From the IMG/VR virus record IMGVR_UViG_3300023174_000272, positions 1 to 45,499 of that record: a stretch of 45,499 bases of DNA. One strand, 5' to 3'. Shown here one piece after another: positions 679-45,499 of this stretch (positions within the stretch are counted from its first letter, which is position 1; each line of letters opens with the position of its first letter). Source of the stretch: a virus. The position numbers and the translations under genes were made by a program. A model generated the notes under the pieces. It worked only from the letters and a program-made list of their open reading frames with translations, was not told the origin of the DNA and searched no databases.

Positions 679-686
679 TATTTATA
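679..686 (-). promoter_or_regulatory. T4-type late promoter TATAAATA (left-edge gene)
   Basis: Exact TATAAATA on the minus strand, 7 bases before ATG at 671. It lies back to back with the terminase motif, with 6 bp between them. Confidence 0.7.
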
Positions 687-5539: not shown

Positions 5540-6094
5540 ATGGCTGACGTAAAACAATTAATTTCCGACTTTTATAGAGTAGCTTCCGCGAGAGATTTTC
5601 AACGCGATTTTCAATTTCGTGTTCTGAGCATCACACCCGCAGGTACAACTGTGACATTTGATGAGAATGATCTTGTATATGCAAAAGCAGCGACATTGCC
5701 TGCTCGTGCCATCAACAATGTTCAAGCTCGTTACATGGGATTAAATTTCAATCTACCTGGCACAGTCAATTATCCAAACAGTGAAAATTATACATTAACA
5801 TTCTACAACGATTCTAAGAATAACCTTAGACAAAAGTTTGAAGATTGGACACGCGATACATTTAATGATGCCAATAGTACTGGTAATTATTTTACACCAA
5901 CACAAGCTAGCACCATTGATTTAGTTCAGCTCGACACACAAATGAACAGAGTTGCTCAATATCAACTCGTGGGTGTCAGTATTCGTAATGTTGGCGCGAT
6001 TGAGTATCCAATCAGTGAAGGCACTGGAACAATTATCAGCTTCCCTGTTGGTTTAGCTTATCACTATTTTACACGCAAAGAAGTCAACGATTAA
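5540..6094 (+). CDS. gp19: Tail tube protein, T4 gp19-like
   Basis: 184 residues matching the T4-type tube family: RDFQFRVLSI near the N-terminus, the hallmark LPARAINNVQARYMGLNFNL, a strand pair ending in YTLTFYNDSKNNLRQKFEDW and a C-terminal strand FPVGLAYHYF. T4 gp19 is slightly shorter (about 163). It stands directly after the sheath gene, the same order as T4 genes 18-19, so this is the best candidate for the main inner tube through which DNA is ejected. Preceded by a late motif 7 bases before its ATG. Confidence 0.93.
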   Translation: MADVKQLISDFYRVASARDFQRDFQFRVLSITPAGTTVTFDENDLVYAKAATLPARAINNVQARYMGLNFNLPGTVNYPNSENYTLTFYNDSKNNLRQKFEDWTRDTFNDANSTGNYFTPTQASTIDLVQLDTQMNRVAQYQLVGVSIRNVGAIEYPISEGTGTIISFPVGLAYHYFTRKEVND

Positions 6095-6117
6095 GATAAT
6101 CGATTCTCCTAACCAGC

Positions 6118-6125
6118 CATAAATA
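6118..6125 (+). promoter_or_regulatory. T4-type late promoter CATAAATA
   Basis: CATAAATA 6 bases before ATG at 6132. Confidence 0.5.
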
Positions 6126-6131
6126 TATCAA

Positions 6132-7085
6132 ATGGCCGGTCTCAATAATCCAATTACTAATGCCTTTCAAGGGCTTACCGATAATGTTATAGGTGTTGGC
6201 AGAGGTACAAATCCCCTCAGTCAACCGCAGATAACCAATTTATTTGGATTCAATATACCTGGTGTACCGCTGATCAGTACACGTGATTATTTTTTACTTC
6301 AACTTCAAAGCTGGCTGACATCAATACCATTGCAAACACAGTGGATTGCTGTAATCGATAGCTTTCCCTATGCCTTAAGAAGTGATATTATTCAAGGGCT
6401 TGAAAGAACAGATGGTGGTAAGAAAGGTTTTGATATTGATCAGGCTAAAACATTACTAACGAGTTACCCTTTTCAAAAAGTCATTGGATGTGTATTTGCT
6501 CAAGGTGCTCAAATCCCCGGTGAAACTTACGATACTGCTGATGTGCCAATTGATAATAATAGAGGGTTTGTGCCAGGTATAGTTTCGGGAAATCGCCGCG
6601 GATATGCACAGGTGCCATTGCAATTAAGTTTTCTTGAAACCAACACAAGCATTGTTGATTTTGTTTTTCGCCCATGGGTAATGCTGGCTAGTCATTATGG
6701 GCTGGTCGCTCGGCCTGGCGATCTTCCTGGTAGTAAAGATTATTTCAATGTAAAAAGTAACATGACTTTATTGTGCTACACACGTAGCTATCAAAATATA
6801 AGTCAGATACCACGCAAAGTTTTTACCTTCTATAATGTTACACCTACTCTTATTAACAATATTAATCTTGACTATCAGGATGAGCCCTCACAGGCAACAG
6901 CATATTCTGTCAACTTTACATACACCAATTACACTATTCAAAATAGCATGTATTTCCCGTTGGCAGATATCATACAAACAGTTGGCAATGTGACCAATGG
7001 CAAATACACACCTGTAGTATCGCCATTGCAGACAACAAACGCTACAAATAGTAATCCACCCCCCAATGTGGCTGGTTTCTTTTAA
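6132..7085 (+). CDS. Baseplate tail tube initiator-like protein (T4 gp54-like)
   Basis: 317 residues, very close to the length of T4 gp54 (320), which sits on the hub-cap ring and nucleates the tube. Visible features are IAVIDSFPYAL (a tube-type first strand), FVPGIVSGNRRGYAQVPLQLSFLE, FVFRPWVMLASHYGLVARPG, and PRKVFTFYNVTPTLINNINLDY, followed by a final strand YSVNFTYTNY and a Pro/Asn-rich tail ending in a terminal GFF. The PW-x-x-x-x-S segment and the later VTPT segment are typical of tube-fold baseplate proteins. The gene directly follows the tube. The gp54 identity is inferred from length, fold pattern and context; gp48 appears separately downstream. Confidence 0.6.
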   Translation: MAGLNNPITNAFQGLTDNVIGVGRGTNPLSQPQITNLFGFNIPGVPLISTRDYFLLQLQSWLTSIPLQTQWIAVIDSFPYALRSDIIQGLERTDGGKKGFDIDQAKTLLTSYPFQKVIGCVFAQGAQIPGETYDTADVPIDNNRGFVPGIVSGNRRGYAQVPLQLSFLETNTSIVDFVFRPWVMLASHYGLVARPGDLPGSKDYFNVKSNMTLLCYTRSYQNISQIPRKVFTFYNVTPTLINNINLDYQDEPSQATAYSVNFTYTNYTIQNSMYFPLADIIQTVGNVTNGKYTPVVSPLQTTNATNSNPPPNVAGFF

Positions 7086-7105
7086 TTTTTTTTCTAAATT
7101 ATTGC

Positions 7106-7939
7106 ATGGATTTCTATCTTAATTGTTGGGTTCCAACGCTCAGTGGATATGCGCGAATTTCTGAATTAAAAAATTCACAATTACAAGTATTGTCAAAGTA
7201 TATTCTTAATGAAGATCATGCAGGCACAAGCGATTGTTTTGATTTGATATTACAGGACAACATACAGGACAAAGATGTAGTTAATAATCTTACTAGGTTT
7301 GATAAATGGTTTATATTTTGTTTTTTAAGAGCCACAAATATTTCTCCTGTTGTTTACATTCAATCCGCAACCAAGGACGGTGCACCATGCAACATTGAAT
7401 TGCAATTGTTTGATTTGCTTACAAAGCTTTCTGAGGCCACTCTCCCTTATAGGTCTGCTGCGACGATTGAAGATCTAAATTTTAATATCCAGGCATCAAA
7501 AAACCTTTTCTCTGGAAATACACTTGCAGATTCAATTGAATCTATACATGTAAAAGGTACAAACATAGTGATTAATGATAAAGCTTCACTGCTTCAAGTA
7601 GTGAGTGACAATCATGGTATTGCAATTTTAATTAAAGACCATCTGTCAAAACTAGATCAACAGTCCAATTATAAGTTAATAGAAAATAGAAACAAAGATA
7701 TAGCGATCAAGGATATACCTGTGAGGCTGTACGATAATACATTGTTTCTCTTTCTTAGATCAATTTATCTCCCGTTTTGTAGAGGAGTATACGTGAAGCA
7801 GTACGATTTAATGAAAAAGTTAAATATTGATTTTAAGAGCATAAAAGATCTTACCCCTCTAGAAGGAGAAATACTTCTCAATCTTCATAACGAAGCAGAA
7901 GCTGACAAGAAATCCAAAAGAAATACAGATCGGCATTAA
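7106..7939 (+). CDS. Hypothetical baseplate-cluster protein (possible hub subunit)
   Basis: 277 residues with an alpha-helical look: an N-terminal segment (LNCWVPTLSGYARISEL), a cluster of aromatic residues in FDKWFIFCFLRATNI (around 66-80), and a lysine-rich C-terminus (EADKKSKRNTDR). The N-terminal pattern of a surface strand followed by a helix that reads like a chaperone-type packing domain is reminiscent of phage hub-assembly proteins such as T4 gp26, but I cannot claim homology. No Shine-Dalgarno sequence is visible. A degenerate late-like TCTAAATT ends 5 bases before the ATG at 7106. It lies between the gp54-like gene and a Pro-rich gene, in the region that carries hub and tape-measure genes in T4-type phages. 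Confidence 0.75.
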   Translation: MDFYLNCWVPTLSGYARISELKNSQLQVLSKYILNEDHAGTSDCFDLILQDNIQDKDVVNNLTRFDKWFIFCFLRATNISPVVYIQSATKDGAPCNIELQLFDLLTKLSEATLPYRSAATIEDLNFNIQASKNLFSGNTLADSIESIHVKGTNIVINDKASLLQVVSDNHGIAILIKDHLSKLDQQSNYKLIENRNKDIAIKDIPVRLYDNTLFLFLRSIYLPFCRGVYVKQYDLMKKLNIDFKSIKDLTPLEGEILLNLHNEAEADKKSKRNTDRH

Positions 7940-7950
7940 TAGAATTACTG

Positions 7951-7958
7951 TATAAATA
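7951..7958 (+). promoter_or_regulatory. T4-type late promoter TATAAATA
   Basis: Exact TATAAATA 6 bases before ATG at 7965, in a 25-base intergenic gap. Confidence 0.65.
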
Positions 7959-7964
7959 TAGTAT

Positions 7965-9410
7965 ATGGCTGATGTACAGTTAGACAATAAAGGCGATATT
8001 ACTCTTTTAAGTATTACTGACAAAATTAAGAAAGCAGATCAGACTGCCAGGGAGATGTACACCAGGTTGGATAGGTTCATGGAAGCTTCAGCTAGAAAAG
8101 AAAAAAATACTAAAGACGAAGCTAGTTTGGCCAAATCAAAAGGATCTAAGGAAAATGCACAAACTCAGAAAGAACCTGCAGCAAAGCAAGAGATTGCTGA
8201 AACTGCTAGGAGTACGGATACTGATGAATTGATGAATAGTGTCATAGGTGAGGTTTCTGACCAACTAAGTAAAGCCAATCTACAAGCAGATACACTAGAG
8301 CTGCAAGAAGATTTAAATACAAAAACTATTTTAAACGCTGTCAGTGAGCAAAACAAACAGACACCACCTCCAGCAGTACCAACTGAAGTCAAACCCTCTG
8401 AGCCTACTAAACCGCAACAGCCTGCAGATCAGAAAGAATTATTCAAAGCTATTCCTGTTGAGCCTATCAAGATCGAAGTAACAGCGGAACCAAAGCAACC
8501 CACAGAATTAGATCAAACAGAACCGCCCAAAGCTACAGAGCCCGTAGAAACGTTGACAACCGCTGCACCAGTAGCAAGCAAAACATTTGAAGAAGCAAAA
8601 CTAGATATGCCTAAGGTTTCACAGACACCGGTGATAGAAGCTTCTCCTGCACAGGAACTACCGGTTGCTGCAACGCCACCTGCACCTGAATTGCAAGAGG
8701 AACTACCGGTTGCTGCAACGCCACCTGCACCTGAATTGCAAGAAAATACCAAAATCTTAAAACCAGAGATTGCAAAAACAGAACTCCCTACAGTAATAGA
8801 AAAGCCATTAGAGGTTGAAGCAGCTAGAGAACCTGTTGCAAGTATCGCTGAGACAATTAATTCACCTGAACCTGCACTGGCTGATATACTTGAGGTACCG
8901 CAAGTGACCGCAATGCCACCTGCATCTAATACGATAGAAGATTTTCTTGAAACACCTCAAAATGCAGTGTCTGAGGTGAGCATGCCTGAAGCAGTGGAGA
9001 CCCCGGTTGAGCCATTTGTTGCAAATAAAGAATCTGCATCCACACAGGAGTTTCCAAATATAGTAGCTTCTACACAGGCAACAGAGCAAGGGACTTCCTT
9101 GAATCTAACTGATGAGAGCTTAGTAACTATTGGAAAAAGTCTTGATAATATGTCGCAACAAATGAAGCAAAATCAAGAAAAATTAGCTACATCTTTGAGT
9201 AACCTTAACAGCACTGCAATGGAGATCTTGAAAATGTTACCAGCGCTACAGCAGCACAATAGTGATCAGCCAATGAAAGTTGTTTCCAATAGTCAAACAC
9301 ACAGCATTGATACAAGTAATATGATAGGAAATTTTCGTGATTCTCTTAACCTAACAACAAAGGGGTACAGTAGAAATACAGTATTCCCTGGGAACAATAG
9401 TATCACATGA
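7965..9410 (+). CDS. Pro/Glu/Ala-rich disordered protein at the tape-measure position
   Basis: 481 residues in three parts. Residues 1-120 are helical and charged (ITDKIKKADQTAREMYTRLDRF). About 125-370 form a long low-complexity stretch rich in Pro, Glu, Ala, Thr and Val, containing a perfect 15-residue tandem duplication of ELPVAATPPAPELQE. The last 110 residues are helical again (SLVTIGKSLDNMSQQMKQNQEKL) and end in a polar tail. It overlaps the gp48-like gene by ATGA, and in T4 the gene before gp48 encodes the tape measure gp29. It could be a tape measure or a linker protein; the extended Pro-rich middle is unusual for a coiled tape measure. No direct family recognition. Confidence 0.75.
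   Translation: MADVQLDNKGDITLLSITDKIKKADQTAREMYTRLDRFMEASARKEKNTKDEASLAKSKGSKENAQTQKEPAAKQEIAETARSTDTDELMNSVIGEVSDQLSKANLQADTLELQEDLNTKTILNAVSEQNKQTPPPAVPTEVKPSEPTKPQQPADQKELFKAIPVEPIKIEVTAEPKQPTELDQTEPPKATEPVETLTTAAPVASKTFEEAKLDMPKVSQTPVIEASPAQELPVAATPPAPELQEELPVAATPPAPELQENTKILKPEIAKTELPTVIEKPLEVEAAREPVASIAETINSPEPALADILEVPQVTAMPPASNTIEDFLETPQNAVSEVSMPEAVETPVEPFVANKESASTQEFPNIVASTQATEQGTSLNLTDESLVTIGKSLDNMSQQMKQNQEKLATSLSNLNSTAMEILKMLPALQQHNSDQPMKVVSNSQTHSIDTSNMIGNFRDSLNLTTKGYSRNTVFPGNNSIT
8655..8744 (+). repeat. 45-bp tandem direct repeat, two copies
   Basis: Copies at 8655-8699 and 8700-8744 differ only in the last base (GAG/GAA) and encode ELPVAATPPAPELQE twice. The near-identity at DNA level indicates a recent duplication. 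A degenerate relative (VTAMPPAS) follows about 170 bases later. Confidence 0.95.
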
Positions 9411-10858
9411 GTCTGTATGCATTTACAAACTTCGAACAACCGTTTCCGCGGTTGCAGGGTGCACCCAGATTAGTACCCACCGGTGCTGTGAGCGGACCTG
9501 GATCTAATTTCCTCAGTCAAGATAGTCCGGGTTATAGCTTGATTGATGTTATCAACGACTTCCAATGGACAACTTCTCCTAAATCTGGCAGACAAGAAGT
9601 ACCAGCTTTGTTCTTGAAAGAGAAAAGATTAAAAACAAATGCTATGATGGCCCAGGTTGCCTACTATGGCCTTGCCTTAGGTAACGTGATTGCTGGTTCA
9701 ATAGCAGGTTTCAATAATTTACCAAACAATTTAAAGCCCTTAATAACAGGAGCTGTTGGTGGCTTGGTTGGAAATAAATTTGGGCAAATATTTCAAGGTG
9801 GTGCCGCAGGACTTGGGTCATTTTTATCTGGCTTGGCCGGTAGTAGACCAGATATAGCTGCTGCTTTTAATGTAATTGGTGGAGCTGTTGGCACTGTTGG
9901 GCAAACAGGTTCAATTGCTGCAGGTGCTGCACTTGGATACGGTCTTGATAGCAGTGTGCCTTCAGCAGGCTTGAATGCGTTGTACCAAGCCATACCCCAG
10001 CTTAACAAATATATTCCACAAAGATTTAATATTGACAGCTTAGGAAGTGATATTCTCGGACCATATGAAGGTCTCTATATAACCGAAGACACCAAGTTTC
10101 TTTATAATTTTCCTTACTTTAGTGATGAGCAGAACTCAATATCAAACTCTTTTGGCTCGCAGGACGAAGTTTTTACAAATATAGACCCAACAAATATGTA
10201 TGCTTTAGCGCAGAATATGAGGGGGGCAGCAAATTATATCTCAGGTTACACAAATTTTGATGCCCCCGGTGTTTATATAGAGAAGCCAAAATTCTTTAAT
10301 TTTAAAGAAGAGGGGGAACGTATTAGATTTAGGTTCCCATTAATCAATACAGGTTGGTCCACATTTGAGGATGTCTCTAAGCATTGGCAGCTCCTCTATT
10401 TACTGGCGTACCAGAACCGGCCCAACAGAAGAAGTCGCGATCTAATTGATCCTGCGGTGATATACGAGGTAACTATTCCTGGTGTTCGCTTCTATCCCTT
10501 CTGTTATATTAGTGAAATGAGCATAAATTTTGTTGGAGCAAGACGTAGAATGAATATTACAGCACCTGTTGGTGGTGGTCAGTCAACAGTTAACACCATT
10601 ATACCTGATGCGTATTTGGTAGATATTACCCTGACAACACTTGTATCGGAAACTCAAAACTTCTTGTACTCTGTATTACAGGATAGACAGAATATTGTAA
10701 CAGTTACGGATAGTAACCCTGCACTAAATCTTTTACAGCGAGAAATGCAGAGATCTTACAATCAGGTGAACCTCACAAGTCAAACAACAACAGATCCTTC
10801 GGGAGCACAAGCATTCGGACGAGCTGCTAGTGATATAGCAACGAGGCTAGGATTGTAG
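9407..10858 (+). CDS. gp48: Baseplate tail tube cap, T4 gp48-like, with glycine-zipper insertion
   Basis: 483 residues; T4 gp48 has about 364. The C-terminal half carries the tube-cap signature: YIEKPKFFNF, a segment IRFRFPLINTG, the helix KHWQLLYLLAYQNRPNRRSRDLIDP and then YEVTIPGVRFYPFCYISEMSINFVGARR, followed by IIPDAYLVDITLTTLV. T4-type caps use this last part to pack onto the hub. The N-terminal 75 residues are Pro/Gly-rich. Between about 78 and 187 lies a Gly/Ala-rich, small-residue segment (for example ITGAVGGLVGNKFG) that resembles glycine-zipper membrane segments and accounts for most of the extra length. The start overlaps the previous stop as ATGA (9407-9410), so translation is coupled. 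Confidence 0.8.
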   Translation: MSLYAFTNFEQPFPRLQGAPRLVPTGAVSGPGSNFLSQDSPGYSLIDVINDFQWTTSPKSGRQEVPALFLKEKRLKTNAMMAQVAYYGLALGNVIAGSIAGFNNLPNNLKPLITGAVGGLVGNKFGQIFQGGAAGLGSFLSGLAGSRPDIAAAFNVIGGAVGTVGQTGSIAAGAALGYGLDSSVPSAGLNALYQAIPQLNKYIPQRFNIDSLGSDILGPYEGLYITEDTKFLYNFPYFSDEQNSISNSFGSQDEVFTNIDPTNMYALAQNMRGAANYISGYTNFDAPGVYIEKPKFFNFKEEGERIRFRFPLINTGWSTFEDVSKHWQLLYLLAYQNRPNRRSRDLIDPAVIYEVTIPGVRFYPFCYISEMSINFVGARRRMNITAPVGGGQSTVNTIIPDAYLVDITLTTLVSETQNFLYSVLQDRQNIVTVTDSNPALNLLQREMQRSYNQVNLTSQTTTDPSGAQAFGRAASDIATRLGL

Positions 10859-10859
10859 T

Positions 10860-11252
10860 ATGATTGGCTTAAGCGCACTTGGATCATTTAGGCGAGATCT
10901 TAAAGTTCTCGGAGAAAATCCTGAAGTTAGCTATGAGAATATCTTTAGAGTGTACAGTACTGAAAACACAGATCAAGGAAATTTTTTGTATTATAATTTA
11001 CTCAATAGTGTCTACCTTCCTGAAACACTCAGCCCAACAACATATTATACAATAACTCTCAATCGTCGATTGCCATGGACTGCTATTAGCTATAATGAGT
11101 ATAGAACCATTGAACTATGGTGGTTAATAGCTCTAACTAATAAAGTCTTTAACCCTGTTCTGTACCCTTCACCTGGTACAAAGCTTAACATAATAAAGCC
11201 TGAGCTAGTAAGAACAGTAGTAAATGATATTAGCACCCAACTCAAGAGGTAA
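10860..11252 (+). CDS. gp53: Baseplate wedge protein, T4 gp53-like
   Basis: 130 residues with the gp53 pattern: an N-terminal segment with YENIFRVY, a middle PTTYYTITLNRRLPWTAISYNEY, then the diagnostic TIELWWLIALTNKVFNP and a closing PGTKLNIIKP that resembles the LysM-like end of gp53. In T4, gp53 binds wedge proteins and helps join wedges around the hub. It begins one base after the gp48-like stop codon and ends two bases before the hub gene, so it is translated within the same operon. T4 gp53 is longer (about 196). Confidence 0.8.
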   Translation: MIGLSALGSFRRDLKVLGENPEVSYENIFRVYSTENTDQGNFLYYNLLNSVYLPETLSPTTYYTITLNRRLPWTAISYNEYRTIELWWLIALTNKVFNPVLYPSPGTKLNIIKPELVRTVVNDISTQLKR

Positions 11253-11254
11253 GC

Positions 11255-12832
11255 ATGAGTAACGCGGTAATTGATAATTTATCTTTTCAAGCAGGGTCAG
11301 AGCAAGTCAAGATTGGCGATACCTATTATACATTCAACGTACAATTGGTTAATAGCGATGGAAATAATGTAGGAATCAAGTTTGGTAGTGTTGTAGATTT
11401 TGGTATTACTGATAGTATTACTAATTTTTATGTAGATGGTTATCTTATATTTCGGAATGATCTGGATGCTTTAGAAAGTGCTCAGAGTGTGTCGACAGAT
11501 GTTCGTGGTATGCCGGAGAATGCTTTTTCCCCGTATGTTTTTCGTGGCGACGGTAGAGACTTACTAATAGTTAATATCAAACCAGCCATATCTGTGGATG
11601 ATGATGACCCTATTAATACTACAAGCCAAGAAACAAACACTAATTTTGCATTGAATTATATCTTCTCCATCTACAACACCGAAGATATTATTGCTGAGGA
11701 TAAAGATATAAAGCTAAAAAAACTATACATACACGAGCAAAGCTTTCAAGTTTTAAATGAAAAAAATGCTTATTTTTCAACAGGAAGAGTAAGAAGTGGT
11801 GGTAATTCCCCCATAGGGACAAGCAATGGTGAGAGAAGTGTTGAAACAGGCGAAGCAATACGCGCTTTGCTCTCTAACGTACTGTCTGATGATACAAACA
11901 CACAGCAAACTTTTGCTGCTGATTGGGATATTGGTAGTAGTAAAGTTTTTTATAGTAGCCCTACAAATAACAAGGCAATTGACGACCTCTACTACTTGCT
12001 AGATTACCATGTAAGCAGTAAGGAGAACGATTATTCCCCAGCTTTACTAAGAAAAGATGGAAACAACACATGGCGCTTGATACCATTGACCAAGCTCTTC
12101 AAGACGGCTTATTATAAAGGCAATGAAAGCATGGGAAATCTTGGTGGGAGCAATCTTACAGAAAATTTTGTTATTGCAAAACCTAATAGCGGTGATAGCC
12201 CCCCATTAACTGGTCCTGAGAGAAATCCTCAAGCTTCACTATTTGCTAATAACTTTCCTGATTATTCCTATGCAGAAAATTTTGAAAATGCAGGCATGAT
12301 GTCTGATGCTAGCACCTTTGGTGTTACTACCCACATGGTTCATAGTTATGACCCTAGTACTAAAACATTTTCTATGGATATAACAGATAATAATATTAAT
12401 GACTCTATGAAGTTATATAATAGAAGCTTTGTACAGACACAAAAAGGTGTCGCTGGAAATTCGCCAGGCCGAAACTTTCCTCTGAATCAAATAAAAACTC
12501 AAAATAAGAATATTAATCATGTGTTTAATCCTAATCCTGATCAAAATATTAGATTGAACTCTGGCCGAAATAAGATATTACTTAATACGGTTTTTAACAA
12601 CAACACAATAGCGTTTAGAACCAGAGGAAATACGGTAAGACAGCCAGGCAAATTCATTACCCTTGAGCGTAAGGATTTTGCAAATAACTCTACATATGAC
12701 AACAAACTTTATGGTACCTATCTCGTAGTTAGAGTTGACCATGTATTTAAGAATAATCAATATTATAACTATATGATATGCACAAAGAGCTACTCTGCAG
12801 AGCCTACGAGCAGCTCTAGTAATGTAATATGA
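11255..12832 (+). CDS. Baseplate central hub protein, T4 gp27-like
   Basis: 525 residues; T4 gp27 has about 391. The N-terminal strand pattern (VDFGITDSITNFYVDGYLIFRN) resembles the first tube-like hub domain, the middle carries FYSSPTNNKAIDDLYYLLDYH followed by PALLRKDGNNTWRLIPL, and the C-terminus contains NTIAFRTRGNTVRQPG with GTYLVVRVDHVFKNNQYYNYM. The last pattern, a Gly-rich turn followed by V-x-H-x-F, is typical of hub proteins of contractile tails (gp27/Mu gp44-type). A Shine-Dalgarno AAGAGGT (11244-11250) overlaps the gp53 stop. A gp5-type lysozyme spike is not fused here and was not seen nearby. Confidence 0.6.
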   Translation: MSNAVIDNLSFQAGSEQVKIGDTYYTFNVQLVNSDGNNVGIKFGSVVDFGITDSITNFYVDGYLIFRNDLDALESAQSVSTDVRGMPENAFSPYVFRGDGRDLLIVNIKPAISVDDDDPINTTSQETNTNFALNYIFSIYNTEDIIAEDKDIKLKKLYIHEQSFQVLNEKNAYFSTGRVRSGGNSPIGTSNGERSVETGEAIRALLSNVLSDDTNTQQTFAADWDIGSSKVFYSSPTNNKAIDDLYYLLDYHVSSKENDYSPALLRKDGNNTWRLIPLTKLFKTAYYKGNESMGNLGGSNLTENFVIAKPNSGDSPPLTGPERNPQASLFANNFPDYSYAENFENAGMMSDASTFGVTTHMVHSYDPSTKTFSMDITDNNINDSMKLYNRSFVQTQKGVAGNSPGRNFPLNQIKTQNKNINHVFNPNPDQNIRLNSGRNKILLNTVFNNNTIAFRTRGNTVRQPGKFITLERKDFANNSTYDNKLYGTYLVVRVDHVFKNNQYYNYMICTKSYSAEPTSSSSNVI

Positions 12833-16164: not shown

Positions 16165-16172
16165 TATTTATA
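16165..16172 (-). promoter_or_regulatory. T4-type late promoter TATAAATA (minus strand)
   Basis: Exact TATAAATA on the minus strand, 6 bases before ATG at 16158. Divergent from the gp25 promoter 33 bp away. Confidence 0.7.
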
Positions 16173-16205: not shown

Positions 16206-16213
16206 TATAAATA
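16206..16213 (+). promoter_or_regulatory. T4-type late promoter TATAAATA (gp25 operon)
   Basis: Exact TATAAATA, 5 bases before ATG at 16219, the geometry that would place transcription start exactly on the ATG. Confidence 0.7.
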
Positions 16214-41056: not shown

Positions 41057-42538
41057 ATGAAATCAATCAGACCTACACAGTCTTACATTGATGAGTCTCG
41101 CGCACAAGCGTTGCTCGAAAAGTGGAAACCAGTTTTGGATTACACTTCGGCCAACGTTAAAGCCATCGAAGATGATCATACTCGTTTGAACACAGCCATG
41201 CTCTTGGAAAACCAAGAAGCTTGGTGCGTCAATGAGGCTAATCAATCTGGTGGTGGTGCCGCTGGCACAGGTTCTGTCTTCGGCTCCAACGCCACAGGTA
41301 ACTACGGGAACCAAATTCCCAATAGCTCACCTCAAGGTGATTGGTATGCTCAAGGCGATGCTCGTTTGCCCAAGATTCTCATTCCAATGATTCGTAGAAC
41401 GTTCCCCGAGTTAATCACCAATGAAATTGTAGGCGTACAGCCCATGGGTGGACCAGTTGGTCTAGCCTTTGCTTTACGTTACAAGTATTCTCCATATCAG
41501 CTTGGCAACGATGGCATCGATGGTTCCGGCACAAATGCTGGCAATCAGATGGCTAACGGTGCCCAAGCAGCTTCCCTTAACAAGGAACTTGGTTACCAAT
41601 ACCTCGACACCCGCTACACTGGTACATCCAGCACCACCCTAACCGGTGGCGCACCTGGGACAGACGCCGCAAGCCTCTTCCCTTGGATCAACCAAGATAA
41701 CGGTGTGGCTCAACTTCTCAGTCAGTTCGAATTGACGGGCAAAATCCCTCAGATCGAAGTCAGCTTTGAAAAGACAGCCGTCGAAGCCGGTACCCGCAGA
41801 CTCGCTGCTCGCTGGTCGGTAGAACTCGAACAGGATCTTAAGAACATGAACGGTATCGATATCGATACTGAGCTCACCAACGCTATGTCGTATGAGCTAC
41901 AGGCCGAAATCGACCGTGAAATGATCGCTCGCATGATCCAAGTCTCACTCAACGCTGGTGCTGGCACAGGATACTCCGTATGGAGCCCTGCTTCCGCAGA
42001 CGGCCGTTGGTTGGTAGAGCGCAATCGCGATTTCTATCAGAGACTCATCATCGAGGCCAACAGAATTGCTGTTCGCAATCGTCGTGGTGCTGCCAACTTT
42101 ATTGTTGCCACACCTCGCGTTTGCGCGATCCTCGAGATGCTTCCTGAGTTTCAATGGGTGCCAGTCCAAGGCAATGTCAACACTCAACCTGTTGGCGTAG
42201 CTAAGGTTGGTAACCTTGGTGGCAGATTCAACGTTTACCGTGATACACGTACAGAAGCCCAATATGAGGGTGGCTTACGTTCCGGTTACCGCGTTGAGTA
42301 CGCTCTACTCGGATACAAAGGTCCGGAGTTTTATGACACTGGTATCATCTATTGCCCTTACATCCCTGTAATGGTACAGAGAACCATTGGTCCTAATGAC
42401 TTCTCGCCACGCGTTGGCTTGCTAACTCGTTATGGCGTTGTTGACAATATCTTCGGTGCTAATCTATATTATCACACGATTCTATTGTCCGGACTTGGTC
42501 AAGCGTTCACACCCGCAAGTGCTTCAGTTTATTTCTAA
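41057..42538 (+). CDS. gp23: Major capsid protein, T4 gp23-like
   Basis: 493 residues; T4 gp23 has 521. HK97-fold landmarks of the T4 family are clear: PKILIPMIRRTFPELITNEIVGVQPMGGPVGLAFALRYKY (in consecutive blocks, about 114-155), the spine-helix region AVEAGTRRLAARWSVELEQDL, LQAEIDREMI, and the C-terminal RVEYALLGYKGPEFYDTGI and YCPYIPVMVQRTIGP. The N-terminal 50 residues are helical and probably removed by the gp21 protease. LLE-N (after Glu51) fits the (I/L)-x-E rule, though other LxE sites exist. Codon use is richer in C than its neighbours, as is common for very abundant proteins. Followed by a strong terminator. Confidence 0.97.
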   Translation: MKSIRPTQSYIDESRAQALLEKWKPVLDYTSANVKAIEDDHTRLNTAMLLENQEAWCVNEANQSGGGAAGTGSVFGSNATGNYGNQIPNSSPQGDWYAQGDARLPKILIPMIRRTFPELITNEIVGVQPMGGPVGLAFALRYKYSPYQLGNDGIDGSGTNAGNQMANGAQAASLNKELGYQYLDTRYTGTSSTTLTGGAPGTDAASLFPWINQDNGVAQLLSQFELTGKIPQIEVSFEKTAVEAGTRRLAARWSVELEQDLKNMNGIDIDTELTNAMSYELQAEIDREMIARMIQVSLNAGAGTGYSVWSPASADGRWLVERNRDFYQRLIIEANRIAVRNRRGAANFIVATPRVCAILEMLPEFQWVPVQGNVNTQPVGVAKVGNLGGRFNVYRDTRTEAQYEGGLRSGYRVEYALLGYKGPEFYDTGIIYCPYIPVMVQRTIGPNDFSPRVGLLTRYGVVDNIFGANLYYHTILLSGLGQAFTPASASVYF

Positions 42539-42590
42539 AGCATTTGTTGGTAGCGAATAAGAAAAAATTCCCGGTACGTCCCGGTTTAAA

Positions 42591-42617
42591 AAGAGGCCCG
42601 AAAGGGCCTCTTTTTTT
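42591..42617 (+). terminator. Rho-independent terminator after capsid gene
   Basis: AGAGGCCC (42592-42599), GAAA loop, GGGCCTCT (42604-42611) and a run of seven T. An eight-base-pair GC-rich perfect stem with a stable GNRA tetraloop. It separates the capsid operon from the LCIB-like gene. Confidence 0.97.
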
Positions 42618-42628
42618 GGTCAAAAATA

Positions 42629-42636
42629 TATAAATA
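42629..42636 (+). promoter_or_regulatory. T4-type late promoter TATAAATA (LCIB-like gene)
   Basis: Exact TATAAATA, 6 bases before ATG at 42643 and just after the capsid terminator, so this gene has its own late transcript. Confidence 0.7.
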
Positions 42637-42642
42637 ATACAT

Positions 42643-43728
42643 ATGGCCATTATACCAGTGTCTGCTTTGAAGGATGCATTTGCAGATGGAGATACACCTG
42701 ACTCAAATGATTTTATTAATTTAATTGATACAACATGTGCTCTGCCTTCTGCAACCAATGGTAACATTGGATCTACCTACACAACAAACTTAACTCTCGT
42801 ACAAGGCATGACCGGGATCCCTGTGGTAATAAACGGTAGCACCTATTATCTTCCTGTATTTACAACCTATGCAGCTCCAGATCAAGCAGCTTACACAGCT
42901 ACTGTGAGACAGACATATCCAAATGCAGTCTTAGCAGAGACTGTGGGTGCAAGATGTGCCACATTCATACAGAGCGTTTGTGGCTATGCACCAGGTGATG
43001 TGGTCACAGCAGCCTGTATATGTTCAGATGATAAAAATGCTCCCATCTTCCCCAACAATACATTTGGTCAATACCCCACATCATTGCAACAATTTTCTGG
43101 ACCATTTTTTGCTGGTGGCATTGGTGGTTATCCCTTCCCAGGCATTGTGGGTCTGTTTGCATGGATGAGCCATGTGACCACACCAGGTGCACTGTTCATC
43201 TATGTGCACCCGCACATTGGTATTACTCAAAGTGGTCAAGTGGGATTCATGAAGCGCAGAGGGCAGCAGGGCAATCTGTCTCAAACTTGTGGTGCAGTTA
43301 ATGCAGCACAAGCCAGAATTGTGGGTACACTGAGTGCAACAGCACCTGTATTTCCAAGTGCAGAATTCACCATCAATGATTTTCAACAATTCACTCTGGT
43401 GAATGCACTTTATTCTAACCGAACCACGCGCAATGCATTGACAGCTGCTGCTCCTTTGCAAGGTGGCACATATGGACAGAGAATGAAGATAGCTACTGAT
43501 GCTATTCTGGTTGCGGCATTGAGTGCAGTGGAAACAATTTTACCCATATCTTATGGTGCCTTTTTCCAGGGTGAAAACTCAGTGGATGTGTTTGTGCATG
43601 CTGGCACATTTATTAATGTGGATGATGGTTATAATGGTTATATTGATACAGTTGCGTTCAAGAAATACAATCCAGTCACACAGACATTTACTACTCTCAC
43701 GGACGCTTTTACTGCAGCTTTTGCTTAA
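42643..43728 (+). CDS. LCIB-like carbonic anhydrase-family protein with phage-type N-terminus
   Basis: 361 residues. About 95-300 match the LCIB family (limiting-CO2-inducible B/C, beta-type carbonic anhydrase fold), as found in algae and in bacteria: CICSDD (125-130), AGGIGGYPFPG (157-167), the helix GLFAWMSHV, the strand FIYVHPHIGIT (185-195), GQVGF, a basic R-x-G-Q segment and TCGAV (215-219). Candidate zinc ligands are Cys127, His191 and Cys216, with Asp129/Asp130 nearby; that order and spacing fit the family. If active, it would interconvert CO2 and bicarbonate. The N-terminal 31 residues (SALKDAFADGDTPDSNDFINLID) follow a pattern, L-x-x-x-F-x-x-G-x-x-P-x-x-x-x-F-x-x-x-x-D, seen in phage tail proteins, so the enzyme may be attached to the virion. 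Family call is by pattern recognition; activity is inference. Confidence 0.8.
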   Translation: MAIIPVSALKDAFADGDTPDSNDFINLIDTTCALPSATNGNIGSTYTTNLTLVQGMTGIPVVINGSTYYLPVFTTYAAPDQAAYTATVRQTYPNAVLAETVGARCATFIQSVCGYAPGDVVTAACICSDDKNAPIFPNNTFGQYPTSLQQFSGPFFAGGIGGYPFPGIVGLFAWMSHVTTPGALFIYVHPHIGITQSGQVGFMKRRGQQGNLSQTCGAVNAAQARIVGTLSATAPVFPSAEFTINDFQQFTLVNALYSNRTTRNALTAAAPLQGGTYGQRMKIATDAILVAALSAVETILPISYGAFFQGENSVDVFVHAGTFINVDDGYNGYIDTVAFKKYNPVTQTFTTLTDAFTAAFA

Positions 43729-43785: not shown

Positions 43786-45499
43786 TTAAATGAGATTGCC
43801 GTATACAATAACTCTGCCAGATAGCTGTGTGTAAGTATTTGTTCCATTAGAATCTACTCTGAACCATAGAGTATTCTGAGGAAATGCATCATCACCACTT
43901 ACAATTTGCTTTCCATTGGAAGCCAACACATTATTGCCTGTTTTATAATATCTGCCTGATGTAATTAGTGTGCTTGGAGTGGTCATGACAAGCTGATTGG
44001 TAACTTGATTTATTGCTGTTGTTTGTGTGTTGTGTCTGTATATTCTAAATGATGGCAAGCTTGTATCACCTACGTTGCCCCCGGCTACAGTATCAAAAAT
44101 GACAGCAAAATCATAAGGTAAAAATGTTTTTCCAGGAGGCACGGTGTATACCAGCTGAGCAACTCCTGATGCTGTAGTGGATAGATTGATTGAATTTGTT
44201 GTTGTTGAGCCAACAGCTATTGTGTATGATACAGCTGCAATGGGAGCAGGTATCAATCCAGATATGGCATTTACTGTAGTGTATGTGGAATTCCATGCAT
44301 TGCTGTTGCCTCCAGATGCATATACAACACCAGTAGCGCTGATATCTCCTACCACTGTTAATGTAGAACCAGGTGAAGCAGTACCAATACCAACTCTACC
44401 TGCTGATGTTATAATGAATATAGTGGAAGCATTACTGCCGCTAGTAACAGTAAACAAGTTTGATGCACTGGTGCTAGACAATGTTGATGAAACTGTTAAG
44501 CTGCCCTGTACTGAAGAGTCGTTATATGATTTAAATCCTTGACCAAATGCAGCACCTCCCGCCACATCAAGATCATTTCCTATGACAGCATTTCTTATAA
44601 TATATGCAGTATCTGTCGACAGCCCTCCTGCTTGCAATTGCTGTACGTATGCTCCACCTAAATCAAGAACATTTATTCTATTATTAGCTCTATCAGCTAA
44701 ATAGGCATATCTACCTTGTATATCGAAATTACATGGCCAGGTAGAAGTGCCGCTATAGCTAGCTATGGTTGCAACTAACCTAGGAGAAGATGGATTAGAT
44801 ACATCTATTTTGTGCAATCCAACCAGATTAGAGAAATAAGCATAATTTCCTTGCAAGATAATGTTACTGAGAGTTTGTGTACCTATACCACCTGTTGGTA
44901 CACTAACATTATTGAGAGCAGAACCATTATATATTCCGAATGTATTGTTGAAATTCATGTAGAGGTATTTTCCTCTAACCACGGCTCCTAAAACAGCTCC
45001 TCCAGAATTAAAGATTTGTTCAGCGGCAGGTATTTTTCTTGGATCAGATACATCCATTCTGTATACTCTAGCAGTGCCCTGATATCCCATTGACCAATAC
45101 AAATATTTACCTTGCATTGAAAGACCATTACTATTTCCATTAGTAGCTGTTTGAGTTGCAAAAACTTTTACTGGTGCATATGGATTGCTTATATCATATG
45201 CAACAATATATCCGTTAGATGTGCTATTGTTGGTTAGAATAAATGCATAATTGCCTTGTACTATTACATCAAATGCATTTTGCCCGGCCCCAATAGTAGA
45301 AGTACTCAACAGTACAATGCTTAATGGGTTAGATATATCAAATATTTGAAATATACTACTGGAAGTATTGGCAGTAACCACATAAGCATATTTGCCATTA
45401 ACATACAGACCTTGTGGGTTAGAAGCGGTTGAAATCTTACCGGTACTAATTGGCGTGGTTTGTGTCAAGTCATAACTCATTAAAGACGCGTCACCGTAG
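43786..45499 (-). CDS. Tail fibre/adhesin with LVIVD-type propeller, N-terminus beyond right edge
   Basis: The frame runs from the right edge to TAA at 43786-43788; the first internal ATG is at 45480 (MSYDLTQ), but codons upstream are open, a propeller repeat is cut there, and no ribosome site or late motif precedes it. The N-terminal 290 residues are LVIVD-type blades: GLYVNGKYAYVVTAN, FQIFDISNP, VIVQGNYAFILTNN, VAYDISNP, SMQGKYLYWSM, RMDVSDP, VVRGKYLYMN, IILQGNYAYFSN, KIDVSNP and DIQGRYAYLAD. A shaft region (VQGSLTVSSTLSS; GRVGIGTASPGSTLTVVGDI) and WNSTYTTVNAISG follow, then a C-terminal tip domain ending VIVYGNLI. Convergent with the LCIB-like gene, 57 bp away. Confidence 0.88.
   Translation of the reverse strand, partial: YGDASLMSYDLTQTTPISTGKISTASNPQGLYVNGKYAYVVTANTSSSIFQIFDISNPLSIVLLSTSTIGAGQNAFDVIVQGNYAFILTNNSTSNGYIVAYDISNPYAPVKVFATQTATNGNSNGLSMQGKYLYWSMGYQGTARVYRMDVSDPRKIPAAEQIFNSGGAVLGAVVRGKYLYMNFNNTFGIYNGSALNNVSVPTGGIGTQTLSNIILQGNYAYFSNLVGLHKIDVSNPSSPRLVATIASYSGTSTWPCNFDIQGRYAYLADRANNRINVLDLGGAYVQQLQAGGLSTDTAYIIRNAVIGNDLDVAGGAAFGQGFKSYNDSSVQGSLTVSSTLSSTSASNLFTVTSGSNASTIFIITSAGRVGIGTASPGSTLTVVGDISATGVVYASGGNSNAWNSTYTTVNAISGLIPAPIAAVSYTIAVGSTTTNSINLSTTASGVAQLVYTVPPGKTFLPYDFAVIFDTVAGGNVGDTSLPSFRIYRHNTQTTAINQVTNQLVMTTPSTLITSGRYYKTGNNVLASNGKQIVSGDDAFPQNTLWFRVDSNGTNTYTQLSGRVIVYGNLI

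Follow-up and report, generated by a model that had tools for sequence, protein, structure and literature searches.

A virus record of 45,499 bases, which was analysed at its full length and is hereafter called the window, encodes a protein of the LCIB/theta type of carbonic anhydrase (42643..43728, + strand; ATG start, 361 aa). The explanation that we favour, with rather better than even confidence, is that this protein is a late-expressed, zinc-dependent LCIB/theta carbonic anhydrase attached to the phage particle via its N-terminal module. The computed grounds for it are the family, the fold, the conservation of the active site, purifying selection on the core, a late-promoter box, the position behind gp23, and the exchange and sharing of modules, the sharing being found in three other lineages; from these we infer both enzymatic activity and display on the virion.

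Family, fold and active site

The assignment of the gene to the LCIB family and fold, made from short motifs in a preliminary description of this DNA, was borne out by the profile search and the structure comparison that it had proposed; the motifs CICSDD, GGIGGYPFPG, HPHIGIT, RRGQ and TCGAV are present in the order given there, and its numbering of Cys127, His191 and Cys216 is correct. The Pfam profile PF18599 (LCIB_C_CA) matches residues 109-273 with an E-value of 1.9e-23 (83.4 bits, cut-off 25), and the sequence search of the PDB returned 6kfs (E 6.9e-16) and PtLCIB4 (E 3.1e-11), with no match to classical beta-carbonic anhydrases. A further match, to PF11914 (E 0.00047, 20.8 bits, below the cut-off of 26.7), was taken as spurious.

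An AlphaFold2 model of the protein (22 sequences, mean pLDDT 72.6), in which almost all of residues 1-77 have pLDDT <50 and the active-site loops 131-140 and 160-162 are of low confidence, superposed on PtLCIB4 (5b5y) with a Z-score of 25.1 and 2.3 Å over 239 residues, model residues 82-357 being aligned, followed by 6kfs, a 'CCM related protein' (Z 24.6), and by Chlamydomonas LCIB (5k5w, Z 20.4) and LCIC (5b5x, Z 19.6). A second model, that of the crAss-like relative L083 (35 sequences, mean pLDDT 80.8), matched PtLCIB4 with Z 25.7, and Foldseek agreed for both models (window model, E 2.5e-12). The enzyme core is accordingly delimited, from the PF18599 match and the structural match to PtLCIB4, as residues 84-361 (42892..43725, +). 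Classical beta-carbonic anhydrases have a common fold with the window model, but the likeness is far weaker than that to LCIB (Z <=12.0); an excerpt of PMC8132391 describes for them a Cys/His/Cys zinc site, as proposed for the window protein. In a library of viral structures, the best match was the carbonic anhydrase of Pandoravirus celtis (BFVD A0A4D6EJK2), which superposed poorly (E 2.1e-3, TM 0.28/0.34) and is no close relative. Judged by features testable from the sequence and the model, the window ORF is, with hardly any room for doubt, a member of the LCIB/theta (beta-carbonic anhydrase-like) family, and its family and fold are secure; a chance match of motifs is ruled out by the profile, the structure and the conservation of residues.

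The proposed zinc ligands, Cys127 (43021..43023, +), His191 (43213..43215, +) and Cys216 (43288..43290, +), stand in the sequence alignment in register with the Cys/His/Cys of 6kfs, 9vzj and PtLCIB4, and are likely to lie close in space around a metal in the predicted structure, because the fold matches LCIB structures. In an alignment of 113 phage ORFs, which includes identical copies from different contigs and from which the window (L036) was removed, Cys127 and His191, together with Asp129 (43027-43029, +), His177 (43171-43173, +) and Arg205 (43255-43257, +), are each kept in 111/111 ORFs covering the position, and Cys216 in 110/110. An earlier alignment of 96 ORFs (six from genome contigs; window removed) gave 95/95 and 94/94. 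Position 128 corresponds in the alignment to Ser47 of PtLCIB4 and is occupied by Ser in 102 of the 111 ORFs and by Ala in the other 9, and His177 corresponds to His88 of PtLCIB4; information on the S47R and H88A forms of PtLCIB4 was taken from PDB titles and alignments. The alignment of phage ORFs also contains a C-terminal FINVDDG motif (residues 323-329; 43609..43629, +), at which Bacteroidota relatives have an (I/V)INTD-like sequence. The Bacteroidota proteins (L109-L133), the nearest cellular sequences found, agree with the phage proteins in the residues of the active-site region and have this matching C-terminal motif.

In six pairs with the window, dN/dS ranged from 0.02 to 0.07 in the core and from 0.10 to 0.42 in the N-terminal module, with many dS values near saturation; the core is under purifying selection. 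The window enzyme is probably catalytically active. The protein is like the known LCIB/theta carbonic anhydrases (PtLCIB4, 6kfs, Chlamydomonas LCIB and LCIC) in profile, fold and aligned Cys/His/Cys, but shares only ~20% identity with them, and the phage proteins form a separate clade; moreover, it differs from the cellular enzymes in its added N-terminal module, in its late phage promoter and in not being tied to photosynthesis.

Genomic position and expression signals

Profile searches of the window ORFs revealed a T4-like particle module with genes for the large terminase, tail sheath, baseplate wedge, head-tail adaptor, prohead protease gp21 and capsid protein gp23. The last of these, a T4-type major capsid protein (41057..42538, +; PF07068 E 4.9e-89, phrog_138 E 1e-83), lies directly upstream of the LCIB gene, as the preliminary description had stated. 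The late promoter and the upstream terminator that it had ascribed to the gene were likewise found. The Rho-independent terminator (42588..42617, +) between the two genes consists of a 12-bp stem, in which 42588-42599 pairs with 42604-42615, a GAAA loop and a U tract; its folding energy of -22.2 kcal/mol corresponds to a z-score of -3.86 and was equalled by 0/200 shuffles, and the element is missing from the output of a simple terminator scan of the window. The T4-type late-promoter box TATAAATA (42629..42636, +) ends 6 nt upstream of the LCIB start codon. Eleven such boxes occur in the window, a number attained by none of 100 shuffles, which gave 5.01 +/- 2.23, and the box is present <=40 nt upstream of 6/33 gene starts tested. 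The window LCIB gene thus has both a late promoter and a location in the particle gene module.

The same arrangement recurs in relatives. The LCIB gene of L001-L005 and L007 lies immediately behind gp23 and is likewise preceded, in the upstream sequence, by TATAAATA; in L013 it follows the portal gene, in L057 and L058 it lies between gp23 and a neck gene, and in the crAss-like L034 the capsid gene lies upstream of it. In L022 and L025, the LCIB gene is far from gp23, and the surrounding ORFs could not be tied to the particle.

Downstream of the LCIB gene, on the opposite strand, a neighbouring gene (43786-45480, -) encodes a protein of 564 aa in which LVIVD propeller repeats were recognised (PF08309, E 5.9e-15). 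Relatives of this protein occur in L005 and L024, that of L024 having weak tail-fibre matches; it is probably a fibre or adhesin.

Five of the TATAAATA boxes, at 679-686 (-), 7951-7958 (+), 16165-16172 (-), 16206-16213 (+) and 42629-42636 (+), stand 5-7 nt before a start codon, two of them as a divergent pair. In T4, late transcription starts ~6 nt downstream of the box; if the start is alike here, the late mRNAs from these five boxes would be almost leaderless.

Distribution of the family and its N-terminal modules

Queries with the window protein and with L034 retrieved no relatives from 50,697 named phage records, and the plasmids searched gave no match either. Three queries of IMG/VR, by contrast with the named phages, matched 35, 83 and 162 stretches (overlapping sets, with the best <=80 loci per query kept), and these many relatives on viral contigs rule out a one-off acquisition by the window phage. 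The carriers comprise T4-like viruses, with gp23 present in 8/30 and 5/13 carrier records tested, as well as crAss-like viruses, with the crAss-type capsid family present in 16/28 carrier records tested, namely in 16/18 with the LKPYA-type module and 0/10 others. Of 395 Bacteroidota genomes searched, 35 have a gene for an LCIB protein.

A tree of 96 rows placed the 71 phage sequences in one clade with support of 100/99 and a long-branch warning at the phage/bacterial junction. Omitted from it were L020, L035, L036, L041, L060, L084, L086 and identical sequences, as well as the first forms of L037-L042, among which L037-L040 and L042 were brought back as L109-L113. The window itself is L036, and its ORFs were still included in the comparison of neighbouring genes. 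Since the T4-like rows L057-L064 are nested among the crAss-like rows, the tree suggests that the LCIB domain has probably moved between unrelated phages. Among the entries listed in a search of the openly licensed literature, no paper on a phage LCIB or theta-carbonic anhydrase, or on its coupling to particle-type modules, was found; in the excerpts of PMC13232217 and PMC11494819, carbonic anhydrase appears only as a size standard and a plasmid gene, respectively.

In the phage LCIB proteins, module-free second copies apart, ~48-135 residues of a lineage-specific kind precede the core. The 25 Bacteroidota proteins examined (L109-L133) are without the phage N-terminal modules: their stop-to-stop frames extend only 4-41 residues before the matched region and therefore hold no module, and, unlike the phage proteins, these frames measure 227-290 aa and are module-free. 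Three lineages have, besides the LCIB gene, further genes in the same phage that begin with its module and then diverge. In L015-L018, one module partner is a protein with a baseplate wedge/tail-fibre connector domain at its end and another has this end together with an RCC1 propeller, the partner in L015 matching cyanophage proteins in its C-terminal part; fibre-like ORFs, some short and some long, are the partners in L057-L064, and ORFs with Thr-rich linkers are those in some of the crAss-like branch. Tail-connector domains are thus present in some module partners, not all. The PDB search gave nothing convincing for the L069 partner, and neither this partner nor that of L057 matched named phages.

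A control comparison was made of the first 55 residues of genes >=200 aa with otherwise unrelated genes of the same locus. The module was common to an unrelated gene for 22/89 LCIB genes and for 12/578 others, 10 of the 12 being LCIB partners; as the loci are not independent, the difference is exaggerated by the Fisher p of 7e-13. The other 67/89 LCIB genes have no module partner within their own locus. Modules are also exchanged between relatives with similar cores: the core of the window protein shares 71% identity with that of L015 and 69% with that of L016, while the window module resembles theirs no better than shuffled sequence (70/300 and 60/300 shuffles equally good).

Several individual architectures were recorded. 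The L018 protein at 6012-8555 (847 aa) starts with an LCIB-type module, contains an RCC1 propeller and ends in a baseplate wedge/tail-fibre connector domain. The crAss-like module LKAYVRYDGSGRVVAGSLIL... stands at the start of a number of distinct proteins, of which many contain long stretches of Thr (L068 1283-2986, L069 6665-7345), and two copies of the LKAYVRYDGSGRVVAGSLIL... module occur in one protein of L147 (10999-12042). Eight loci (L021-L026, L044 and L045) contain a tandem LCIB pair, one member with a module and one beginning at the core, and such a pair may form a mixed complex. In L183 and L184 (both 9632-11962), the LCIB domain constitutes residues 108-384 of a 776-aa protein, the remaining parts of which gave no convincing match, the C-terminal part of the L183 protein giving none to named phages; 0/5 L183 neighbours tested matched PHROG.

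The window's own module, residues 1-83 (42643..42891, +; LKxxFxxGxxPxSxDFxNLID), is the proposed particle anchor and is absent from the Bacteroidota relatives. It occurs as one copy per record, in the LCIB gene, in the 10 records searched; a viral scan with it kept 16 loci, 15 of them in contigs already carrying LCIB and the other being L096. Apart from L096, the module was found in no non-LCIB gene of these 10 records and the viral scan. It weakly resembles phrog_22781 (E 0.00092). The start of gp046 of Flavobacterium phage lotta8 matched it with E 8, which is not significant database-wide. When these two sequences alone were compared, their starts aligned with each other, the E-value of that comparison not referring to a whole database; this likeness in sequence is suggestive only. 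The 'structural' label of gp046 was assigned by similarity, and the excerpt of PMC7077304 reports no particle proteomics. The resemblance of the N-terminus to the starts of phage particle proteins, noticed in the preliminary description and in our view its weightiest point, is supported for other lineages by the family-wide comparison; for the module of the window itself the support is weak.

From these patterns we infer that the N-terminal modules anchor the proteins to the virion, and the LCIB protein family as a whole probably sits on virions. As the window clade's module was found only in LCIB genes, display is proposed there from position, promoter and family analogy; the window's own protein is, by its position, its late box and the family pattern, somewhat less probably a virion protein than the family at large.

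Proposed role and alternative explanations

In the mechanism that we propose, the LCIB gene would be transcribed late from its own TATAAATA promoter, the N-terminal module would fix the carbonic anhydrase to the particle, and CO2 and bicarbonate would be converted into each other at the zinc site, close to the particle. One setting might be the thin layer bordering the host while the phage attaches to it, where the particle-bound enzyme would alter CO2, bicarbonate and pH locally. A benefit to the phage from this chemistry is the weakest step, and we put it forward with considerable doubt. The wider proposition, that T4-like and crAss-like uncultured phages both mount active carbonic anhydrase on their particles, passing one domain among anchor modules and in some cases pairing anchored and module-free copies as a complex, appears to us evenly balanced.

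The main rival to display is a soluble, late-made auxiliary metabolic enzyme within the infected cell, whose N-terminal module is unrelated to the particle. Such an enzyme could provide bicarbonate for carboxylations and carbamoyl phosphate, buffer pH or, if the host is cyanobacterial, drain the bicarbonate pool of the CO2-concentrating mechanism. It would agree with the intact active site, with the module-free state of the bacterial relatives and of the second copies in eight loci, with the distance from gp23 in L022 and L025, and with hints of cyanobacteria, namely the C-terminus of the L015 partner and the capsid protein of the crAss-like L034, which is nearest to that of Leptolyngbya phage Lbo-JY46 (28.5%). 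However, the late box and the place in the particle module argue against it, as do the modules common to other genes, some with tail-connector ends, and the embedding of the domain in the 776-aa protein of L183/L184. Moreover, psbA was found in 0/30 and nblA in 0/34 carrier records, which may be fragments, the Synechococcus elongatus control being matched in both searches; psbA and nblA are not carried by all cyanophages, and a cyanobacterial host is compatible with these counts. We therefore regard a soluble enzyme as unlikely. Of the carbon- or pH-related auxiliary metabolic gene of the preliminary description, the late timing is supported by the box, and the metabolic role fares less well in view of the modules common to probable particle proteins and of the psbA and nblA counts.

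Two further readings keep the protein on or in the particle. The domain might be particle-borne with another chemistry, such as that of an esterase on acetylated surface sugars, or with binding only, as a receptor-binding head in which zinc is retained as a stabilising element; the particle-type modules and linkers would fit equally, and tail-protein enzymes attacking surface sugars are a known kind and offer a precedent. Asp129, His177 and Arg205 are, however, kept throughout besides the zinc ligands, and position 128 stays small, as in PtLCIB4, of which an S47R mutant was made, so that this reading seems improbable. The enzyme might also be packed inside the capsid and enter the cell with the DNA, performing bicarbonate chemistry at the start of infection. 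The gene adjoins capsid or portal genes in several lineages, and a late-made, early-acting protein could account for a metabolic gene having a late promoter, but the Thr-/Pro-rich linkers, RCC1 propeller and tail-connector domains of the module partners point to the outside of the particle, making packaging highly improbable.

Attachment to the particle through the N-terminal module, the explanation favoured here, has parallels. Phage tail and capsid proteins with enzyme domains, such as depolymerases and lysozyme domains, are known, and in them too the enzyme is produced late and coupled to a particle module; whereas they attack cell-surface polymer, LCIB would act on dissolved inorganic carbon. 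Carbonic anhydrases are known as enzymes of cells, the LCIB type otherwise coming from algae and bacteria. If the explanation is true, virions would perform enzymology on dissolved inorganic carbon outside the cell, and an intact, conserved phage carbonic anhydrase family, produced late and on exchangeable particle-type modules, would add a new kind to the virion enzymes. The question of what a phage gains from CO2/bicarbonate chemistry at its own surface is thereby made testable, and the N-terminus and promoter should be checked before a metabolic domain in a phage is called an auxiliary metabolic gene.

As a minor observation on the carriers, SD-like motifs precede 7/29 starts in the window (6% in shuffled sequence), and 3/125 and 6/166 starts in two crAss-like sets (3% and 2% in shuffled sequence, respectively).
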